A stretch of DNA of 35,838 bases from Lachnospiraceae bacterium (GTDB lineage Bacteria > Bacillota > Clostridia > Lachnospirales > Lachnospiraceae): contig JAILLI010000113.1 of assembly GCA_024693225.1 (NCBI GenBank), positions 1 through 35,838 on the forward strand, in the 5' to 3' direction. How positions within the stretch are numbered: the stretch's first letter is position 1; the number at the start of each line of letters is the position of its first letter. The translations under genes were made by a program, and so were the position numbers. The notes beneath the pieces are model-generated. The model was not told the origin of the DNA, did no database searches, and was given only the letters and a program-made list of their open reading frames with translations. Below are positions 1 through 15,165 of the stretch, one piece after another.

Positions 1-3000
1 CTTCCCGACAGCGTTACAACTGTTGATTTCGGGGCCTTTTCAAACTGTGATAATCTGCAGACCGTCAAAATGTCCGAAAGCGTTAGAACACTTGGTTCCA
101 GCGCTTTTTCGGGTTGTACGGATCTGTATTCGGTCAGCATCCCCAGAACAGTCAGGTCCATTGGCTCGGGAACTTTCGCGGGATGTTCTTCGCTTGCGAG
201 TGTTCCGGTATCAGACGCCAATAAGAACTATACCAGTTATGACGGCGTCATATATTCAAAGGATGGCAGGAAGCTTGTACAGTACCTGGCCGGAAGACCT
301 GCGACCACATATGAGATGCCCCTATCGGTCAGGGAGATCGAAGAATACGCTTTCTGGGGGGCCAACAATCTTTCCAAGCTTTCCATAACCGGCGGTGTCA
401 GAAAGATCCCGGAGTATGCTTTCGCTAACTGCAGGGGTCTGCAACACGTGACACTTCCCCGTTCCGTACAGTCCATATTTGCCTATGCTTTTCAGAACTG
501 TGACAGTCTTTCCTACATAAATATACCGGATTCGGTAGGATATATAGATGACAGGGCTTTTTCCAATACGAATGGTGCCAAGCTCCGTTTCATAGACCCG
601 GATGGAAATGTTGTAAAGACCTTTAACTCGGAGGATGTTGACCAGTACGGAAGCGGCACGGGTGGAGTAGATGCTATAGAAAAGCCTGATTATTCTGCGA
701 ACAAGGCCGAAAGTACGGACGGCAGCGAAGATGCGGCCGATTCCGATACAGGGGATGTATCCGGAAGCACCGACAGACCGGCTGATACCGGAAGTACGGA
801 TAAAGCGGAAGAAGGAGGAAGTACGGAGAATACCGGAAGTACAGAAAATACCGGAAGTACGGAGAATACCGGAAGTACAGACAATTCCGGGAGCACGGAA
901 AATACAGGAAGTACGGACAATACCGGAAACTCCGGAGCGGATGCATCAGCCGATACGGCAGACGGGAATGTGATAAATGATAACGGATCGACTGTTTTCA
1001 TAGAAGAGGGTGAGCCCGGGGAGACTTTCGATCCGACAGATGTTACTCCGCTTGAAGGAGAAGACGGCGGAGAGGGCGGTACTTCGCAGGAAGAGGAAAC
1101 ATCGGCTCCCGAGAATATCATTACGGGAAACAATATATATAATGACGGTTATTACAAAGCATCCGACAGCGGCACAAAGCCCTGGGATACAAAGATAGAG
1201 TATCATGATTATGAGGATAACATGACCGGTTACGATCTTGGCGGAGGAAAGGTCCTTGGCGGAGTTGCGGTACTTCGTATGTCAAGCGATATCCCGGTCA
1301 AAGGGTTTGATCTTGGCGGAGCGGAGTATGAGGATGAGTTTATGGGCACTGCCGGAATGAACCCCATCCAAAGGGAAGAGGATATCATAGGAGATACCTA
1401 TGCCTCATATTCCGGGGATGCTTCTTCGGTCTCGGTTCCGGCTGGTGTTTCAAGGATAGGCAACCGGGCATTTTATAACAATGATAACCTCAAGTCGGTC
1501 GACCTTCCTTCGGGGATAACAGACATAGGAGAGTTCGCCTTTGCAAGGAGCGGCCTTACTTCGGTCGCCATTCCTGAAGGGACCAAAAGGATAGACTATG
1601 CGGCCTTTTATATGTGCCCTGACCTTAATGATATCAGTATACCCGGCAGCGTGGAAAAGATAGGGCTCGGTGCTCTGGACGGGACCCCCTATATGGAAAA
1701 CCGCAAAAATTCCTCGCCGGAAGATTTCATAATCGAGGGAGACGGTATCCTCATGGCTTACAAGGGACATGACCGCCAGGTCGTGATCCCCGACAATGTC
1801 AGACATATCGGGCCTGCGGCCTTTGCCAAAAACAGCAATATAACAAGTGTTGTCATCCCTTCAAATGTCAATGATATAGGTGAGGAAGCCTTCTGTGACT
1901 GCGATAACCTAAAAGAACTAGTCATGGATGAAGGGCTTAAGGAGATTGAGGACAGGGCCTTTAAGAACTCTGCCTTAAAGGCTGTGAGTATACCTGATTC
2001 CGTGGAAAAGATCGGCCTGTCCGCCTTTGATAACGGTGGAACCTTAAAGACAGTTATAATCAAGGGTGATGATGTTCCAAATGTTACATACGATAAGAGC
2101 GCGACCAGACTGTCGGCCAAGAAGCTCCGTACCGATGCCTTTGAAGGGGCGGAGAATGCGATCGTGTCCCGGACATGCGATATAGACAGCGGGACCCTCT
2201 TCGATCCCAGATATTACGGCTTCCATGGTGAAGTGTACTCGATAAACCCGGATACGGATAAGACCCTTGTTCTTGAACGGGCCCTTATCAAGCCCGATAT
2301 AGCCGGTAATGTCCTTATCAACCAGGATGTTATGATAGCGGGGGAGAAATATACCCTGGGACAGGTTAAGAGCAATGCTTTTGACAGTTACAAGAACTGG
2401 GCCGAGCTCTATGACAACAAGCCTGTAAATGTAGCTGTAAACGGTGAGAGATCGGATGATCTTAATGCTCTTCTTGCCGGTGTCAACTCGGATGTCATAT
2501 CCGAGGACGAGAGTGATGGGCAGGCTGGGCCCGAGGAGGATCAGATCAGATCGAACATCACAGTCAGCCTTGACGGAAAGCGGTTTCCGACAAGAGGAAC
2601 GGCAAAAGCCACCATACCGGGCGATAATGACAGATACAAGATCAATATATCCGAGGACGAGAGTGCAAGCGACAGGATAGAAGCTGCATTCCTTCATGGT
2701 TACGGGACAAGCCCTTCGGGAGGCTTTGTTCCGCTTTCCGTGGATATGTATGATAAGAGCGGGACTGTTCCGATACATAAGCTCGGATCTTCCAAGATGG
2801 AAATGTCCATACCGGTCCCTTCGGGTATGGAAGATGATGAGGGAGTGACCGTGGCCTGCCTTGATGACAACGGGCTTCTTACCAATCTGTCAAGCGACAT
2901 CAAAGATGAAGACGGAACAAAGACCATAAACTTTGTTACGGGTCACTGCAGTACTTATGTCATATATTCAAGATCATCACGCACCCCTTCGGGAAATGGT

Positions 3001-3183
3001 GAAGAGGTGATGTCCTATGAGGAGGAAAATGCCGCAGGCAATGCTTCCTTAAGCGGCACATGGCAGACCCTTAACAAAAAGGTTTATGGACCCGTAAGCA
3101 CAAAATGGTTTATAATCATAATCCTGGTTGCTATGGCAGGTATACTGGTACTGTACGACCGGGGCAGGAAAAAACATAAATAA
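1..3183 (+). CDS. BspA-like leucine-rich-repeat surface protein (5' truncated)
   Basis: The reading frame is open from the first base, so the gene starts before the window; 1060 residues are visible. Two blocks of LRR_5 (BspA/TpLRR-type) repeats occur, at about residues 1-190 and 475-690, with the recurrent pattern of a short beta strand, 'IP(x)SV..I', then 'AF..C..L'. Between them lies a Ser/Thr/Glu-rich linker containing six near-perfect GST(E/D)N(T/S) hexapeptides (residues 273-308). A beta-rich C-terminal region (about 840-990) is followed by one hydrophobic segment (about 1036-1052) and a basic tail, a membrane anchor without an LPxTG motif. The family sits on the cell surface and often mediates adhesion or protein binding; the ligand here is unknown. 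It ends 20 bases before icd, with no clear terminator between. The family call is firm, the role inferred. Confidence 0.9.
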   Translation, partial: LPDSVTTVDFGAFSNCDNLQTVKMSESVRTLGSSAFSGCTDLYSVSIPRTVRSIGSGTFAGCSSLASVPVSDANKNYTSYDGVIYSKDGRKLVQYLAGRPATTYEMPLSVREIEEYAFWGANNLSKLSITGGVRKIPEYAFANCRGLQHVTLPRSVQSIFAYAFQNCDSLSYINIPDSVGYIDDRAFSNTNGAKLRFIDPDGNVVKTFNSEDVDQYGSGTGGVDAIEKPDYSANKAESTDGSEDAADSDTGDVSGSTDRPADTGSTDKAEEGGSTENTGSTENTGSTENTGSTDNSGSTENTGSTDNTGNSGADASADTADGNVINDNGSTVFIEEGEPGETFDPTDVTPLEGEDGGEGGTSQEEETSAPENIITGNNIYNDGYYKASDSGTKPWDTKIEYHDYEDNMTGYDLGGGKVLGGVAVLRMSSDIPVKGFDLGGAEYEDEFMGTAGMNPIQREEDIIGDTYASYSGDASSVSVPAGVSRIGNRAFYNNDNLKSVDLPSGITDIGEFAFARSGLTSVAIPEGTKRIDYAAFYMCPDLNDISIPGSVEKIGLGALDGTPYMENRKNSSPEDFIIEGDGILMAYKGHDRQVVIPDNVRHIGPAAFAKNSNITSVVIPSNVNDIGEEAFCDCDNLKELVMDEGLKEIEDRAFKNSALKAVSIPDSVEKIGLSAFDNGGTLKTVIIKGDDVPNVTYDKSATRLSAKKLRTDAFEGAENAIVSRTCDIDSGTLFDPRYYGFHGEVYSINPDTDKTLVLERALIKPDIAGNVLINQDVMIAGEKYTLGQVKSNAFDSYKNWAELYDNKPVNVAVNGERSDDLNALLAGVNSDVISEDESDGQAGPEEDQIRSNITVSLDGKRFPTRGTAKATIPGDNDRYKINISEDESASDRIEAAFLHGYGTSPSGGFVPLSVDMYDKSGTVPIHKLGSSKMEMSIPVPSGMEDDEGVTVACLDDNGLLTNLSSDIKDEDGTKTINFVTGHCSTYVIYSRSSRTPSGNGEEVMSYEEENAAGNASLSGTWQTLNKKVYGPVSTKWFIIIILVAMAGILVLYDRGRKKHK
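817..924 (+). repeat. Six tandem 18-bp repeats encoding GST(E/D)N(T/S) stalk
   Basis: Six in-frame 18-base units begin at 817, 835, 853, 871, 889 and 907, each a variant of GGAAGTACGGAGAATACC. They encode a hydrophilic linker in the surface protein. A partial seventh unit follows. Units 1 and 3 are identical, which suggests slippage or recombination could change copy number. Confidence 0.95.
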
Positions 3184-11730: not shown

Positions 11731-13473
11731 TTGGACGATTTAAAATACCAGGTCGATCTGCTTACGGCTTTAAATGAAAGATTAATGAAGAGCGAAAAGA
11801 TGTACCGGCGCATCGCAGAGTGTTCCGGCACTCTTTTCATGTATTTTGATCTCAAGTCATCTCCGGCTAAGGTCGATCTTGTGGGCCCATGGGACGATAT
11901 GGTAGGGGAGAAGATAGCCAATCATCCCTATGATGAGTCTTATATGCTGAACCTACTCCTGGATGAGGATCAGGACGAATTCCGCATACATATGCTGGAA
12001 CTCGAAAGGGAGGGCCTTGAGAGCGGAAGCTGTGAGGTCAGGAGCAGGAACAAGCGCTACTGGCTGTCCTGTTTTGCAAAAGTAACCTATGATGACGAGC
12101 ACAGGCCGATCGAGAAGATCATTTCCATCAAGGATATCACCAAGATAAAGATGAACTCGGAAGAACTCGAATACCTGGCCTTCTATGATTCGCTGACCGG
12201 CGTTTACAACAGGAATTATTTCGTCAGAAAATTCCGTGATATGTGCGAACTTGCCGACAGCGAGGAGACGAGCGTGGAGATCATGTTCGTTGATATAGAT
12301 GATTTCAAGAAGATCAACGATTCGATAGGGCTTCTGTTCGGTGATGAACTGGTTCAGGAGTTCGGCCAGTATCTCAAAGACTTTAACAGCGATGATATAT
12401 TGGTGGGCCGTTTCGGAAGTGACGTTTTTGTCATTGCCGTATACAATCCCTGCGGACAGCGCAGTGCCGATGTTGTTTACCGCAAGATCAAGGAACGACT
12501 CCGTCATCCCTTTGTCCTGACCAACAAGACAGAGCTTATGTTTACCGTATCATGCGGAGTGGCTGAATATCCGGATGCCGGAAGGACGGCTCTCGAAGTC
12601 ATCAAGAATGCGGAGATAGTCCTCTATAAGGCAAAAGAGAGGGGCAAGAACGGGATACAGTACTTCGAACTTGAGATTCTGAACAAGTTCATCAATAACA
12701 TATCGGTAGAAAAGCAGCTCAAGGAAGCCATAGAGACAAACGGCTTTCAGCTCTATTACCAGCCACAGTATTATGCATCGGACGGAAAGCTCCGGGGAGC
12801 CGAGGTCCTTCTCCGCTGGCCGGATCCCGAGGGCGACGGATTTATTACATCTCCCGATGAGTTCATACCGATAGCGGAAAAGAACGGAGCCATAGTTCCC
12901 ATAGGAAACTTTGTCCTGAAGGAAGCACTCAAGACCTTCAATGACTGGAGGACCAAGTATCATATACCCATGATCCTTTCCGTGAACATATCGGCTGTAT
13001 CGCTTGAAAAAGAGAACTTTGTGGACACTGTGTCCCATGCGCTCAGCCTCTATGGTGTCAGTCCCGAAGTGCTCGAGCTTGAGATAACCGAGTCTGTTTT
13101 CATAAACAACTTTGAAGATGTCATAGATAAGATCAAGACCCTGCGTGGACTTGGGATCAGGGTGAGCCTTGATGACTTCGGTACGGGCTTTTCATCCCTT
13201 TCCTATCTGAGACAGATCCCCATAGATACGATCAAGATCGACAGGTCCTTCATTGAAACGGCTGTTAAGGACGACAGTTCCGGCATCATATATGAGAGTG
13301 TTATCGAAATGTCCAAGAAGCTGGGATTTGAGACCGTTGCGGAGGGAGTAGAGACTAGAGAGCAGTTCAATTACCTTCGTGAGAAGAAGATCGACATCAT
13401 ACAGGGCTTCCTGCTGGGCAGGCCCATAAGCAAGGTTGAATTCGAGAAACTGCTCATAAGACAGATGCCATAA
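11731..13473 (+). CDS. c-di-GMP phosphodiesterase with PAS-like, degenerate GGDEF and EAL domains
   Basis: The 580-residue cytoplasmic protein has three parts: a PAS-like sensor (about 15-140), a GGDEF-fold domain (about 145-310) and an EAL domain (about 325-575). The GGDEF motif is replaced by GSDVF (about 229-233), so cyclase activity is unlikely; the domain may bind GTP or be structural. The EAL domain keeps the metal and catalytic residues: the Glu of GAEVLLRW (about 358), the Asn of SVNIS, the Glu of ELEITES, the pair in DDFGTGFSS (about 480), the Lys of IKIDRSF, the Glu of AEGVE and the Gln of QGF. It should therefore hydrolyse c-di-GMP. The start is TTG with only a weak purine-rich site; expression may rely on coupling to asd. 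No membrane segment is seen. Confidence 0.88.
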   Translation: MDDLKYQVDLLTALNERLMKSEKMYRRIAECSGTLFMYFDLKSSPAKVDLVGPWDDMVGEKIANHPYDESYMLNLLLDEDQDEFRIHMLELEREGLESGSCEVRSRNKRYWLSCFAKVTYDDEHRPIEKIISIKDITKIKMNSEELEYLAFYDSLTGVYNRNYFVRKFRDMCELADSEETSVEIMFVDIDDFKKINDSIGLLFGDELVQEFGQYLKDFNSDDILVGRFGSDVFVIAVYNPCGQRSADVVYRKIKERLRHPFVLTNKTELMFTVSCGVAEYPDAGRTALEVIKNAEIVLYKAKERGKNGIQYFELEILNKFINNISVEKQLKEAIETNGFQLYYQPQYYASDGKLRGAEVLLRWPDPEGDGFITSPDEFIPIAEKNGAIVPIGNFVLKEALKTFNDWRTKYHIPMILSVNISAVSLEKENFVDTVSHALSLYGVSPEVLELEITESVFINNFEDVIDKIKTLRGLGIRVSLDDFGTGFSSLSYLRQIPIDTIKIDRSFIETAVKDDSSGIIYESVIEMSKKLGFETVAEGVETREQFNYLREKKIDIIQGFLLGRPISKVEFEKLLIRQMP

Positions 13474-13476
13474 TAT

Positions 13477-13770
13477 GTCATAAGGTGTCATCGAAGATGA
13501 CGGAACCTTGTGACACGGCGACATCGACGAAGTCGATGTTGTAATGCAAGACGATCCAAATGGGCGACCGTCCTACGTCATAAGGTGTCATCGAAGATGA
13601 AGGAACCTTGTGACACGGCGACATCGAATATCTCACATTGAAAATGTGAGATGCCATCCCGGCGAGGGACGAAGTCGATATTGTAATCTAAGGCGATCCA
13701 AATGGGCGACCGTCCTACGTCATAAGGTGTCATCGAAGATGTTGTAATGCAAGACGATCCAAATGGGCGA
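13477..13770. repeat. Three tandem mosaic repeats made of GAA-capped hairpins (fills the 13474-13791 intergenic gap)
   Basis: Copy 1 (13477-13576) and copy 2 (13577-13718) both start GTCATAAGGTGTCATCGAAG and end GGGCGACCGTCCTAC. Copy 3 (13719-13770) has the start fused directly to the end with the middle lost, and stops at GGGCGA. Each copy contains perfect hairpins with a GAA loop: GTCATC-GAA-GATGAC (13487-13501), ACATCGAC-GAA-GTCGATGT (13521-13539), and an extra module in copy 2 with a 10-bp stem ATCTCACATT/AATGTGAGAT (13630-13652) inserted inside the second hairpin. No gene or clear terminator is seen here. It looks like a REP- or MITE-type non-coding repeat. Confidence 0.9.
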
Positions 13771-13791
13771 TAGGCTTCATAATACAGATAT

Positions 13792-15165
13792 ATGTACAGA
13801 AAAAAAGATCTGCAGTTCCTGCAGGATATTTATGACAGACCATCCAATGATATCGCACTTCTGTATGGCGACAAGTCCTACGGCCTTATCGAGGTGATCA
13901 CAGATCTGATGCGTGATAAGGACTGCCTTTACTACAGGGCAAGGGCCGTGGATGATACGACACAGAAGCTCTTCTTTGCACGCGCACTTCATGAACAGAC
14001 AAGAACACCCGTATTTCCCGAAGATGATTATGAAAGACTTATCGGATCATATATCAATGAGCATACGGACAGGAAGAAACTGATAATCCTGGATGATTTT
14101 TCATATCTGATTAAAGAAAATCCGACCTTCGTAAATTTCCTGACAAGCCTTCTGTCCGACAGATCCAGGCTCGGATCCGCCATGTTCCTTCTGGTATCGG
14201 ATGACAGCGGATGGGTTGAGAATGACATGCTCCGTATCATAGGAAGGAGATCTTCCGAGATAAGCGGGGTCCTTAAACTTCGGCCATATACCCCGGCTGA
14301 GTTTGCGGCATGCTTTCCAAAGATGCCATATGAAGAGATGATCGGCATATATTCCTTTGCAGGCGGCAAATGCGCCATTTACAATGATATCACAGAAAAA
14401 ACAACACTCCGTGATATGGTGGTGAAGTATCTGGCCATATGGAGCAGCCGCGATTTTGACCCCGATTCATATCTGCCAAGGGAGATAAGGGAACCCCAGG
14501 TATATAATACGATACTGGTAAATCTCGCCGCGGGCATGACAAAACCCAAAGATCTTCATAAGGCGACCGGGACAGACAGGGCAAAGCTTGCGGTCTATCT
14601 GAAGAAGCTCATGGAATATGATATCGTCGAAAAGAAGATAAATGAGGCTGCTGCCGAGGCTTCCGACAGCAGGAAGGCCGGTATCTATGTCATAAAGGAC
14701 CAGCTTATAAGGTTTTATTACAGGTATGTTTATGCGAACGCATCCCTCCTGCAGATATCCGGACCCGAGAGATTTTACAGAAGGTATATAGAACACGGGA
14801 TCGATGAGTTTACGGGAAGCGTATACCCGCTCTTTTGCATGGATCATATCAGATATCTGCAAAGAGAAGGACGTCTGACCTTTAAGCTGGCCTCTGTCGA
14901 GGAATACAATGACAGGTATGATGCCATTGATTTCATAATCGTTGCGGCCGGAGGGAGTGTTATAGCATGCGCCTGTAAATACGGGACAGCCCATATGACC
15001 CATAAAACCTACGAGGATGTCAGGGCATCGGTCAGAAAGAACAGGCTTATGTGTGATAATATCTGGCTGTTTTCTTCAGGGGGCTTTGATCAGAAACTTG
15101 TGACCATGGAAGGAGAGACCCCGGGGCTCAAGCTGATAGAGGGAAAAGATCAAAGGCTTCATTGA
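13792..15165 (+). CDS. DUF234-type AAA/STAND ATPase homologue with lost Walker A and nuclease residues
   Basis: The 457-residue protein aligns by pattern with archaeal-type ATPases that begin MFIGREKEL and end in a DUF234 nuclease-like domain. Here the P-loop position reads LLYGDKSYGLIEVI (about residues 23-36), with no GKT/S, so ATP binding is doubtful. The Walker B-like strand KKLIILDDF (about 95) is kept. The middle (about 240-300) is a winged-helix segment. The C-terminal DUF234 part keeps YDAIDFIIVAAGG, but the expected E-x-K is C-x-K (ACACKYG, about 397), so nuclease activity is also doubtful. No Shine-Dalgarno site is visible; a CATAAT at 13778-13783 would put the transcript start almost at the ATG, hinting at a leaderless message. 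It lies directly after the hairpin repeats. Role unknown. Confidence 0.75.
   Translation: MYRKKDLQFLQDIYDRPSNDIALLYGDKSYGLIEVITDLMRDKDCLYYRARAVDDTTQKLFFARALHEQTRTPVFPEDDYERLIGSYINEHTDRKKLIILDDFSYLIKENPTFVNFLTSLLSDRSRLGSAMFLLVSDDSGWVENDMLRIIGRRSSEISGVLKLRPYTPAEFAACFPKMPYEEMIGIYSFAGGKCAIYNDITEKTTLRDMVVKYLAIWSSRDFDPDSYLPREIREPQVYNTILVNLAAGMTKPKDLHKATGTDRAKLAVYLKKLMEYDIVEKKINEAAAEASDSRKAGIYVIKDQLIRFYYRYVYANASLLQISGPERFYRRYIEHGIDEFTGSVYPLFCMDHIRYLQREGRLTFKLASVEEYNDRYDAIDFIIVAAGGSVIACACKYGTAHMTHKTYEDVRASVRKNRLMCDNIWLFSSGGFDQKLVTMEGETPGLKLIEGKDQRLH

Follow-up and report, generated by a model that had tools for sequence, protein, structure and literature searches.

The hairpin array lying between two coding sequences of the window (the whole 35,838-nt stretch of Lachnospiraceae DNA analysed here, contig JAILLI010000113.1) is probably a non-autonomous mobile element that was inserted in this lineage only; it would be a composite form from a family that we call D1-D2, which would have spread through one Lachnospiraceae clade. 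We base this reading on the empty locus in relatives, the copy numbers, the covariation, the placement of the copies, the data on a second small module (the I-module) and the elements found inside L10 leaders.

The array (window 13476-13770) is made of a hairpin-rich unit in three tandem copies, located between a GGDEF/EAL gene and a DUF234/ATPase-like gene (Table 1). An earlier note on this DNA had described copies of 100, 142 and 52 bases with at least four GAA-capped hairpins, and both observations hold. A repeat search confirmed the copy starts. Copy 1 carries the stems GTCATC-GAA-GATGAC (13487-13501) and ACATCGAC-GAA-GTCGATGT (13521-13539), copy 2 has TCATC-GAA-GATGA and the 10-bp ATCTCACATT-GAA-AATGTGAGAT, and a short CATC-GAA-GATG is retained in copy 3. 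The 10-bp hairpin had been proposed to be inserted within an existing one, and it does belong to a 42-nt insert sitting in the unit's second hairpin. Copy 3 had been taken for an internal-deletion form, which we can confirm because the 39 nt that it lacks equal the spacing of two GATG tetramers of copy 1 (13496 and 13535), with GATG at both ends of the loss. The fold of the array has a z of -4.25 on the + strand and of -5.57 on the - strand, and equal stability was found in 0/100 shuffles for either strand.

Table 1. Features of the hairpin array and its neighbouring genes (positions in the window).
Feature	Position	Strand	Remarks
Upstream gene, GGDEF + EAL	11731-13473	+	TAA stop ends 2 nt 5' of the element
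Copy 1 of array	13477-13576 (100 nt)	+	From sequence and repeat search
Copy 1, domain D1	13476-13515	+	Hairpin GTCATC-GAA-GATGAC within outer stem TGTCATAAGG/CCTTGTGACA; GGAA as one-sided spacer
Copy 1, H hairpin GGCGACATCGACGAAGTCGATGTTGT	13517-13542	+	Occupies the place of D2's upper 5' arm
Copy 1, 3' half of domain D2	13543-13573	+	ATCCAAATGGGCGA ... CCGTCC
Copy 2 of array	13577-13718 (142 nt)	+	Longer by the 42-nt insert; from sequence and repeat search
I-module insert of copy 2	13628-13669	+	Hairpin ATCTCACATT-GAA-AATGTGAGAT + GCCATCCCGGCGAG (+GGA), within H hairpin
Copy 3 of array	13719-13770 (52 nt)	+	Internal-deletion form, 39 nt lost between GATG repeats; from sequence
Downstream gene, DUF234/ATPase-like	13792-15165	+	318 nt after the EAL-gene stop

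Pieces of the array unit gave 12 matches in the same genome, 5 in the array itself and 7 elsewhere, and the H hairpin (up to 4 mismatches) was found at 7 further distinct places among the collected loci, often as the second hairpin of a different two-hairpin unit. Pattern searches and reading of the matches led to a fuller element of ca. 90 nt, composed of two bulged hairpins. In D1 a purine internal loop (about AGGGG / AAGAA) separates the outer stem from an inner hairpin. D2 has two stems, the first of them short, with tandem GA on either side between them, and then an asymmetric loop (CYAT / ATYCAAAT) that leads to its inner hairpin. By eye, the ends of the element (TG.., ..CC) do not resemble inverted repeats of one another such as MITEs have. 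Searching with ATCCAAATGGGCGA, one mismatch allowed, produced 19 matches (at least one of them in coding sequence) against 0 in the control; the pattern GTAGNTAGN{12,42}CTGNCTAC was weak, with 6 matches against 3. Two loci from a 21-mer scan (L103 and L141) were dropped since their genomes have no covariance-model match.

A covariance model was built from nine copies of the same genome, which match it by construction. With 150 of 320 candidates scored, this genome has at least 34 matches at E<=1 and at least 31 at E<=0.001. A search of 61 genomes, with stricter filters and 70 candidates scored per genome, also gives lower bounds: at least 23 have matches at E<=0.01, all of them among the 37 genomes of the same genus. 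Among the candidates scored, 13 genus genomes (the window's own included) have at least 16-39 matches, 10 have at least 1-3 and 14/37 have none at E<=0.01; 0/24 genomes of other families have a match at this threshold. Four further loci of the poor genomes (L089, L090, L092, L093) lie in tRNA or rRNA clusters. The rich genomes (>=16 matches) are the most alike in two proteins, and judging from these sequences they look like a clade of Lachnospiraceae. The bacteria in whose intergenic DNA the family is scattered are a gut and rumen group. A named strain, Eubacterium uniforme ATCC 35992, has 4 matches. The refuting alternative considered in the earlier note, a purely local duplication, is thus contradicted by the dispersed copies that the genome and genus searches recovered. 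In Rfam only a tRNA reaches the gathering score in the window, and only tRNAs do so at 8 element loci searched at E<=5; searches of open PubMed Central papers showed no description of the family.

Within this family the window copy is a divergent and rearranged member. Against a covariance model made from other copies, copy 1 reaches 24.4 bits with E 8.6e-4, and copy 2 reaches 15.8 bits with E 0.066, in an unfiltered scan of the 35.8-kb window, and in the whole-genome search the window copy is weak (22.8 bits, E 0.145). Copy 1 has the D1 fold with its one-sided purine spacer, as recovered in the window search; the intact D2 fold, with its tandem GA and CYAT / ATYCAAAT loop, is not present in the window copies, where only the 3' half of D2 is found.

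The structure is best seen in an alignment of 112 distinct copies from seven genomes (80 stretches around copies among those listed, plus 17 of the 30 loci of genome G000), which was fitted to the model and is hence biased toward it. In this alignment 96.8% of the cells pair, two-sided changes appear in 27 of the 29 pairs, and covariation amounts to 0.483, compared to 0.125 after shuffling and at most 0.058 when the partners are slid. Twelve of the 33 occupied unpaired columns are 97-99% one base; among these are all four GA bases of D2 as well as the AT preceding its 3' arm, and the rest are looser. The earlier note had asked whether stems covary while the GAA loop stays fixed. The compensatory changes bear out the first part; as to the second, the loop is usually but not always GAA (per base, 66/83/86% in D1 and 96/75/98% in D2). 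Nor is the unit a "stem-GAA-stem", as had been supposed, but a two-domain element in which the most conserved unpaired bases are in internal loops. Pair 7 of D1 is T.G in 66/110 copies and pair 4 is mismatched in 35; the T.G pair agrees with a constraint acting on the strand that bears the GAA loops.

The placement of the copies follows a strict rule. Of 38 usable copies (those that also have a co-directional downstream ORF and a usable gap), 32 have their 5' end within 4 nt of a stop codon or overlapping it, against 8.1 expected from uniform placement, in a sample of seven genomes with mechanical ORFs that includes orthologous loci, so that not all copies are independent. A co-directional upstream ORF exists for 60/114 copies, 37 of which are located at -10 to +4 nt. 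Similarly, where a tRNA lies 5' of the copy, the distance is at most 5 nt in 21/22 cases (14 antisense, 7 sense), while none of the 10 with a tRNA on the 3' side is within 5 nt. By eye, two of the matches in E. uniforme begin at most 1 nt after a stop codon and one is beside a tRNA. This abutment could reflect an insertion preference or a spacer that eroded until conserved sequence was reached.

The first 13 nt of the element recur within 60 nt downstream (at least 11/13) in 22/104 copies, compared with 5.7% of cross comparisons. At several loci a partial D1 repeat reaches the next start codon, carrying AGGAGG, and to judge by its sequence it may act as ribosome-binding site of the downstream gene. 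The idea that D1 was itself built from the ribosome-binding site of the target is weakened, since four sequences (L149, L150, L154, L172) from the locus that follows the SRP RNA have neither element nor D1-like sequence, and tRNA-side copies have the same D1. At that SRP RNA locus L158 and L159 have the 5' half of D1 only, and the empty L105 shows some likeness to D1.

The age of the array can be approached through its neighbours. The downstream protein has a homologue in 35/37 genus genomes (the window's own included), 22 of these being weak ones (<=31% identity), and the comparison covers the 12 nearest (48-59% identity, L313-L324). Each of the 12 has an ORF with an end like that of the EAL gene, and 1-15 nt separate its stop from the start codon of the downstream gene (318 nt in the window); no element is found between both genes in any of them. 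This makes the array specific to the window's lineage. The sequence CATAATA occurs on the + strand immediately left of the array (13469-13475) and again at 13778-13784; the pair, noticed post hoc and at a single locus, is a possible 7-nt target duplication. Elsewhere in the window (70-3183) there is an ORF with a run of short GSTENT / GSTDNT-type repeats.

The 42-nt insert of copy 2 is a member of a module of ca. 36-42 nt, ATATC..hairpin..GATGCC..GGCGAG (the I-module). Its pattern has 32 matches in 8/37 genus genomes against 1 control match, although three (L285, L286 and L287) are probable chance coding matches, included both in this number and in the 29 distinct contexts. Eight of the 29 contexts are the same point of the D1 inner hairpin, after the second base of the loop; the remaining ones are other repeat types, the D1/D2 junction and D2, and some are unplaced. 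Four I-modules of genome G022 share 95-100% identity, compared with 58-77% for the hosts around them (6 pairs), a difference pointing to movement of the module. The D1 loop of L206 (G022) carries an I-module that the orthologous L225 (G020) does not have, a change that may have gone in either direction. A test for helices around the insertion points was weakly positive (9/29 at >=5 bp, against 16.7% of controls), so that targeting to loops rests on the D1 cases.

The nesting of hairpins is not restricted to the repeats themselves, since a D1-D2 element is also located within the L10 leader (RF00557) of six genomes (G000, G010, G020, G026, G035 and G023), in the apical part of a hairpin of this RNA. 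All six loci score above the RF00557 gathering score, the matches being to the host RNA. In the L221 alignment, 14 model positions of the AGCAGG/CCUGCC hairpin are taken up by 120 nt. The earlier note suggested that the repeat grows when one hairpin is inserted into another, which fits both the I-modules and these leaders. More tentatively, and as a reading that we think unlikely, the hairpins of ca. 36-42 nt might be units of a loop-targeted mobility system, entering other hairpins in folded, single-stranded form behind the second base of an apical loop, bringing their own GAA loop and building hairpins within hairpins, the L10 leader included, by means of an enzyme that is not of the Y1 type.

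If the array is a mobile element, elements would arrive beside gene ends, with the 5' end at a stop codon or a few nt from the end of a tRNA, would then multiply locally in tandem and lose segments by slippage, and would diversify through the arrival of further small modules (H, I) within their own hairpins. In its active form the element would be a folded single strand with GAA loops, either ssDNA or RNA, which an enzyme would move in trans. The structure may be kept by the needs of movement, by an RNA function or by both, and some copies seem to have gained roles through their position. Several results count against this reading. The target-site duplication characteristic of MITEs was not found in 104 copies (exact matches of >=5 nt in 4/104 against 3.1 expected, of >=6 nt in 0/104), and a diagonal test gave a z of 3.4 against a maximum of 3.7 in 20 shuffles. 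There is no recent burst of D1-D2, as identity within genomes (0.652) is about that between genomes (0.641). No mobilizing gene was found when PF01797 was sought as a partner, and the helix test was weak. Besides, pairs of filled and empty loci may reflect loss as well as gain, and elements at the same locus in several species fit a selected function equally well.

That function could be that of a cis-acting RNA, a 3'-end stabiliser, processing site or device for translation coupling, with mobility ancient or absent, an alternative that we consider unlikely. It would account for the covarying stems and for the 12/33 unpaired columns at 97-99%, and the same-locus elements speak for it, L207 and L228 being 100% identical with flanks at 87.8%. 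So do the copies in transcribed L10 leaders, present also in G026, G035 and G023, which have at least 1-2 D1-D2 matches each, and the D1-like tails that seemingly supply a ribosome-binding site to some downstream genes. However, 14 of the 21 tRNA-abutting copies are antisense to the tRNA, locus occupancy varies between species, and some same-locus pairs have diverged more than their flanks (L198/L223, 0.739 against 81.6%). Paired changes are seen in same-locus copies across species (L245/L261, L236/L269, L214/L251/L273), in which one domain can stay nearly constant and the other be quite different; this could result from module exchange, re-insertion or stepwise compensation.

Small structured repeats are common in bacteria, and Y1 transposases move REPs; the way in which such gene-less repeats spread is less clear outside RAYT systems. 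A second alternative is that a RAYT (Y1 tyrosine transposase) moves the elements, which would then be REP/BIME repeats of the classical kind. Copy number, intergenic location and stop codons supplied by the element would all agree with it, as is described for GTAG REPs (PMC3733652), and Y1_Tnp is found in 18/37 genus genomes and in 3/5 of the rich ones that are >=94% complete (G004, G010, G015). We nevertheless regard it as very improbable. Only 4/13 rich genomes have Y1_Tnp (the three just named plus G001), and it is missing from G025 and G029 (99% complete, with at least 39 and 30 copies), while 14/24 poor or empty genomes have it, and a RAYT/Y1 association with the elements, tried across the genus genomes, was discarded as not consistent. 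Neither is there a fixed, unpaired terminal GTAG: the corresponding positions 2-5 pair and covary in the D1 outer stem, position 3 being T57 C37 A5% and position 4 A64 T35%. The Y1_Tnp frames of the genus are short (about 120-165 aa) or long (about 220-305 aa), plus fragments.

Template switching in replication (quasi-palindrome correction) is able to produce perfect palindromes, and a purely local duplication perfected in this way would suit the tandem copies and the matching 4-nt ends of the copy 3 deletion, but we give it hardly any credence, since the family, dispersed over at least 23/61 genomes, refutes it as the whole explanation and the conserved unpaired bases, the T.G at pair 7 (66/110) and the mismatches at pair 4 (35) should have been removed; it may contribute to the turnover of the stems.

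The behaviour of the D1-D2 elements, which we favour as mobile, is REP/BOX-like. The BOX elements of Streptococcus pneumoniae are likewise modular, structured, intergenic repeats of a Firmicute; 36 annotated genes get their stop codon from a BOX and one BOX forms a composite RNA structure with T-box riboswitches (PMC3049150). By that description BOX is set apart by its modules A/B/C and terminal inverted repeats, whereas D1-D2 has two bulged hairpins, strong covariation and separate hairpin modules inside hairpin loops. REP, BIME and REPIN sequences are also small palindromic repeats at gene ends, in clusters and with repeat-supplied stop codons (PMC3733652), but D1-D2 is ca. 90 nt long, with two bulged hairpins in one orientation and no consistent link to a Y1 transposase. 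Hairpin elements, some of them double, invade mitochondrial intergenic regions patchily, although these are organellar (sponge) and the word "nested" is absent from the text on them (PMC2800124). IS1397, IS621 and ISKpn1 are mobile DNA inserting into palindromic repeats, IS1397 and others into REPs (PMC1525189); they are insertion sequences with transposases, while an I-module (ca. 36-42 nt) is too short for a transposase gene. Stem-loop families have been surveyed in 40 genomes (PMC2267715).

What the D1-D2 family combines is a strict positional rule, covariation with conserved unpaired bases and the apparently recent movement of ca. 36-nt hairpins from host to host, which suggests that structured RNAs can grow by insertion of hairpins into hairpins. 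Its presence in a named strain, E. uniforme ATCC 35992, makes the mobilizer, the ssDNA or RNA form and the effect on neighbouring genes testable.

Other repeats were met along the way. A second dispersed hairpin repeat, around TGAGCGGGTACGGC (L057, L059, L297, L305, L308 and others), adjoins some D1-D2 elements or tRNAs and hosts an I-module at three or more loci. At L282, L288, L290, L303, L307 and L310 an I-like module is carried by a repeat ending CTGTCAGACAGGACCCGCT (or ..GGTCCCGCT); this repeat lies at contig ends in several places of the window's genome, and its short frame imitates a protein C-terminus (SEFRRREGFPEASRTV). Some I-modules have beside them a duplicated "ORF" with SRTV or SRTA at its end, which was considered as a transposase end and rejected; the frame, 31-34 residues common to unrelated places (four loci), is read as another repeat and not as a gene. 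Among the genomes, G033 carries a gene nearly identical to that of G010 plus a second homologue (L149, L150, L172) and may be a mixed MAG, and the sequences L112 and L132 of two named MAGs share 98.6% identity.
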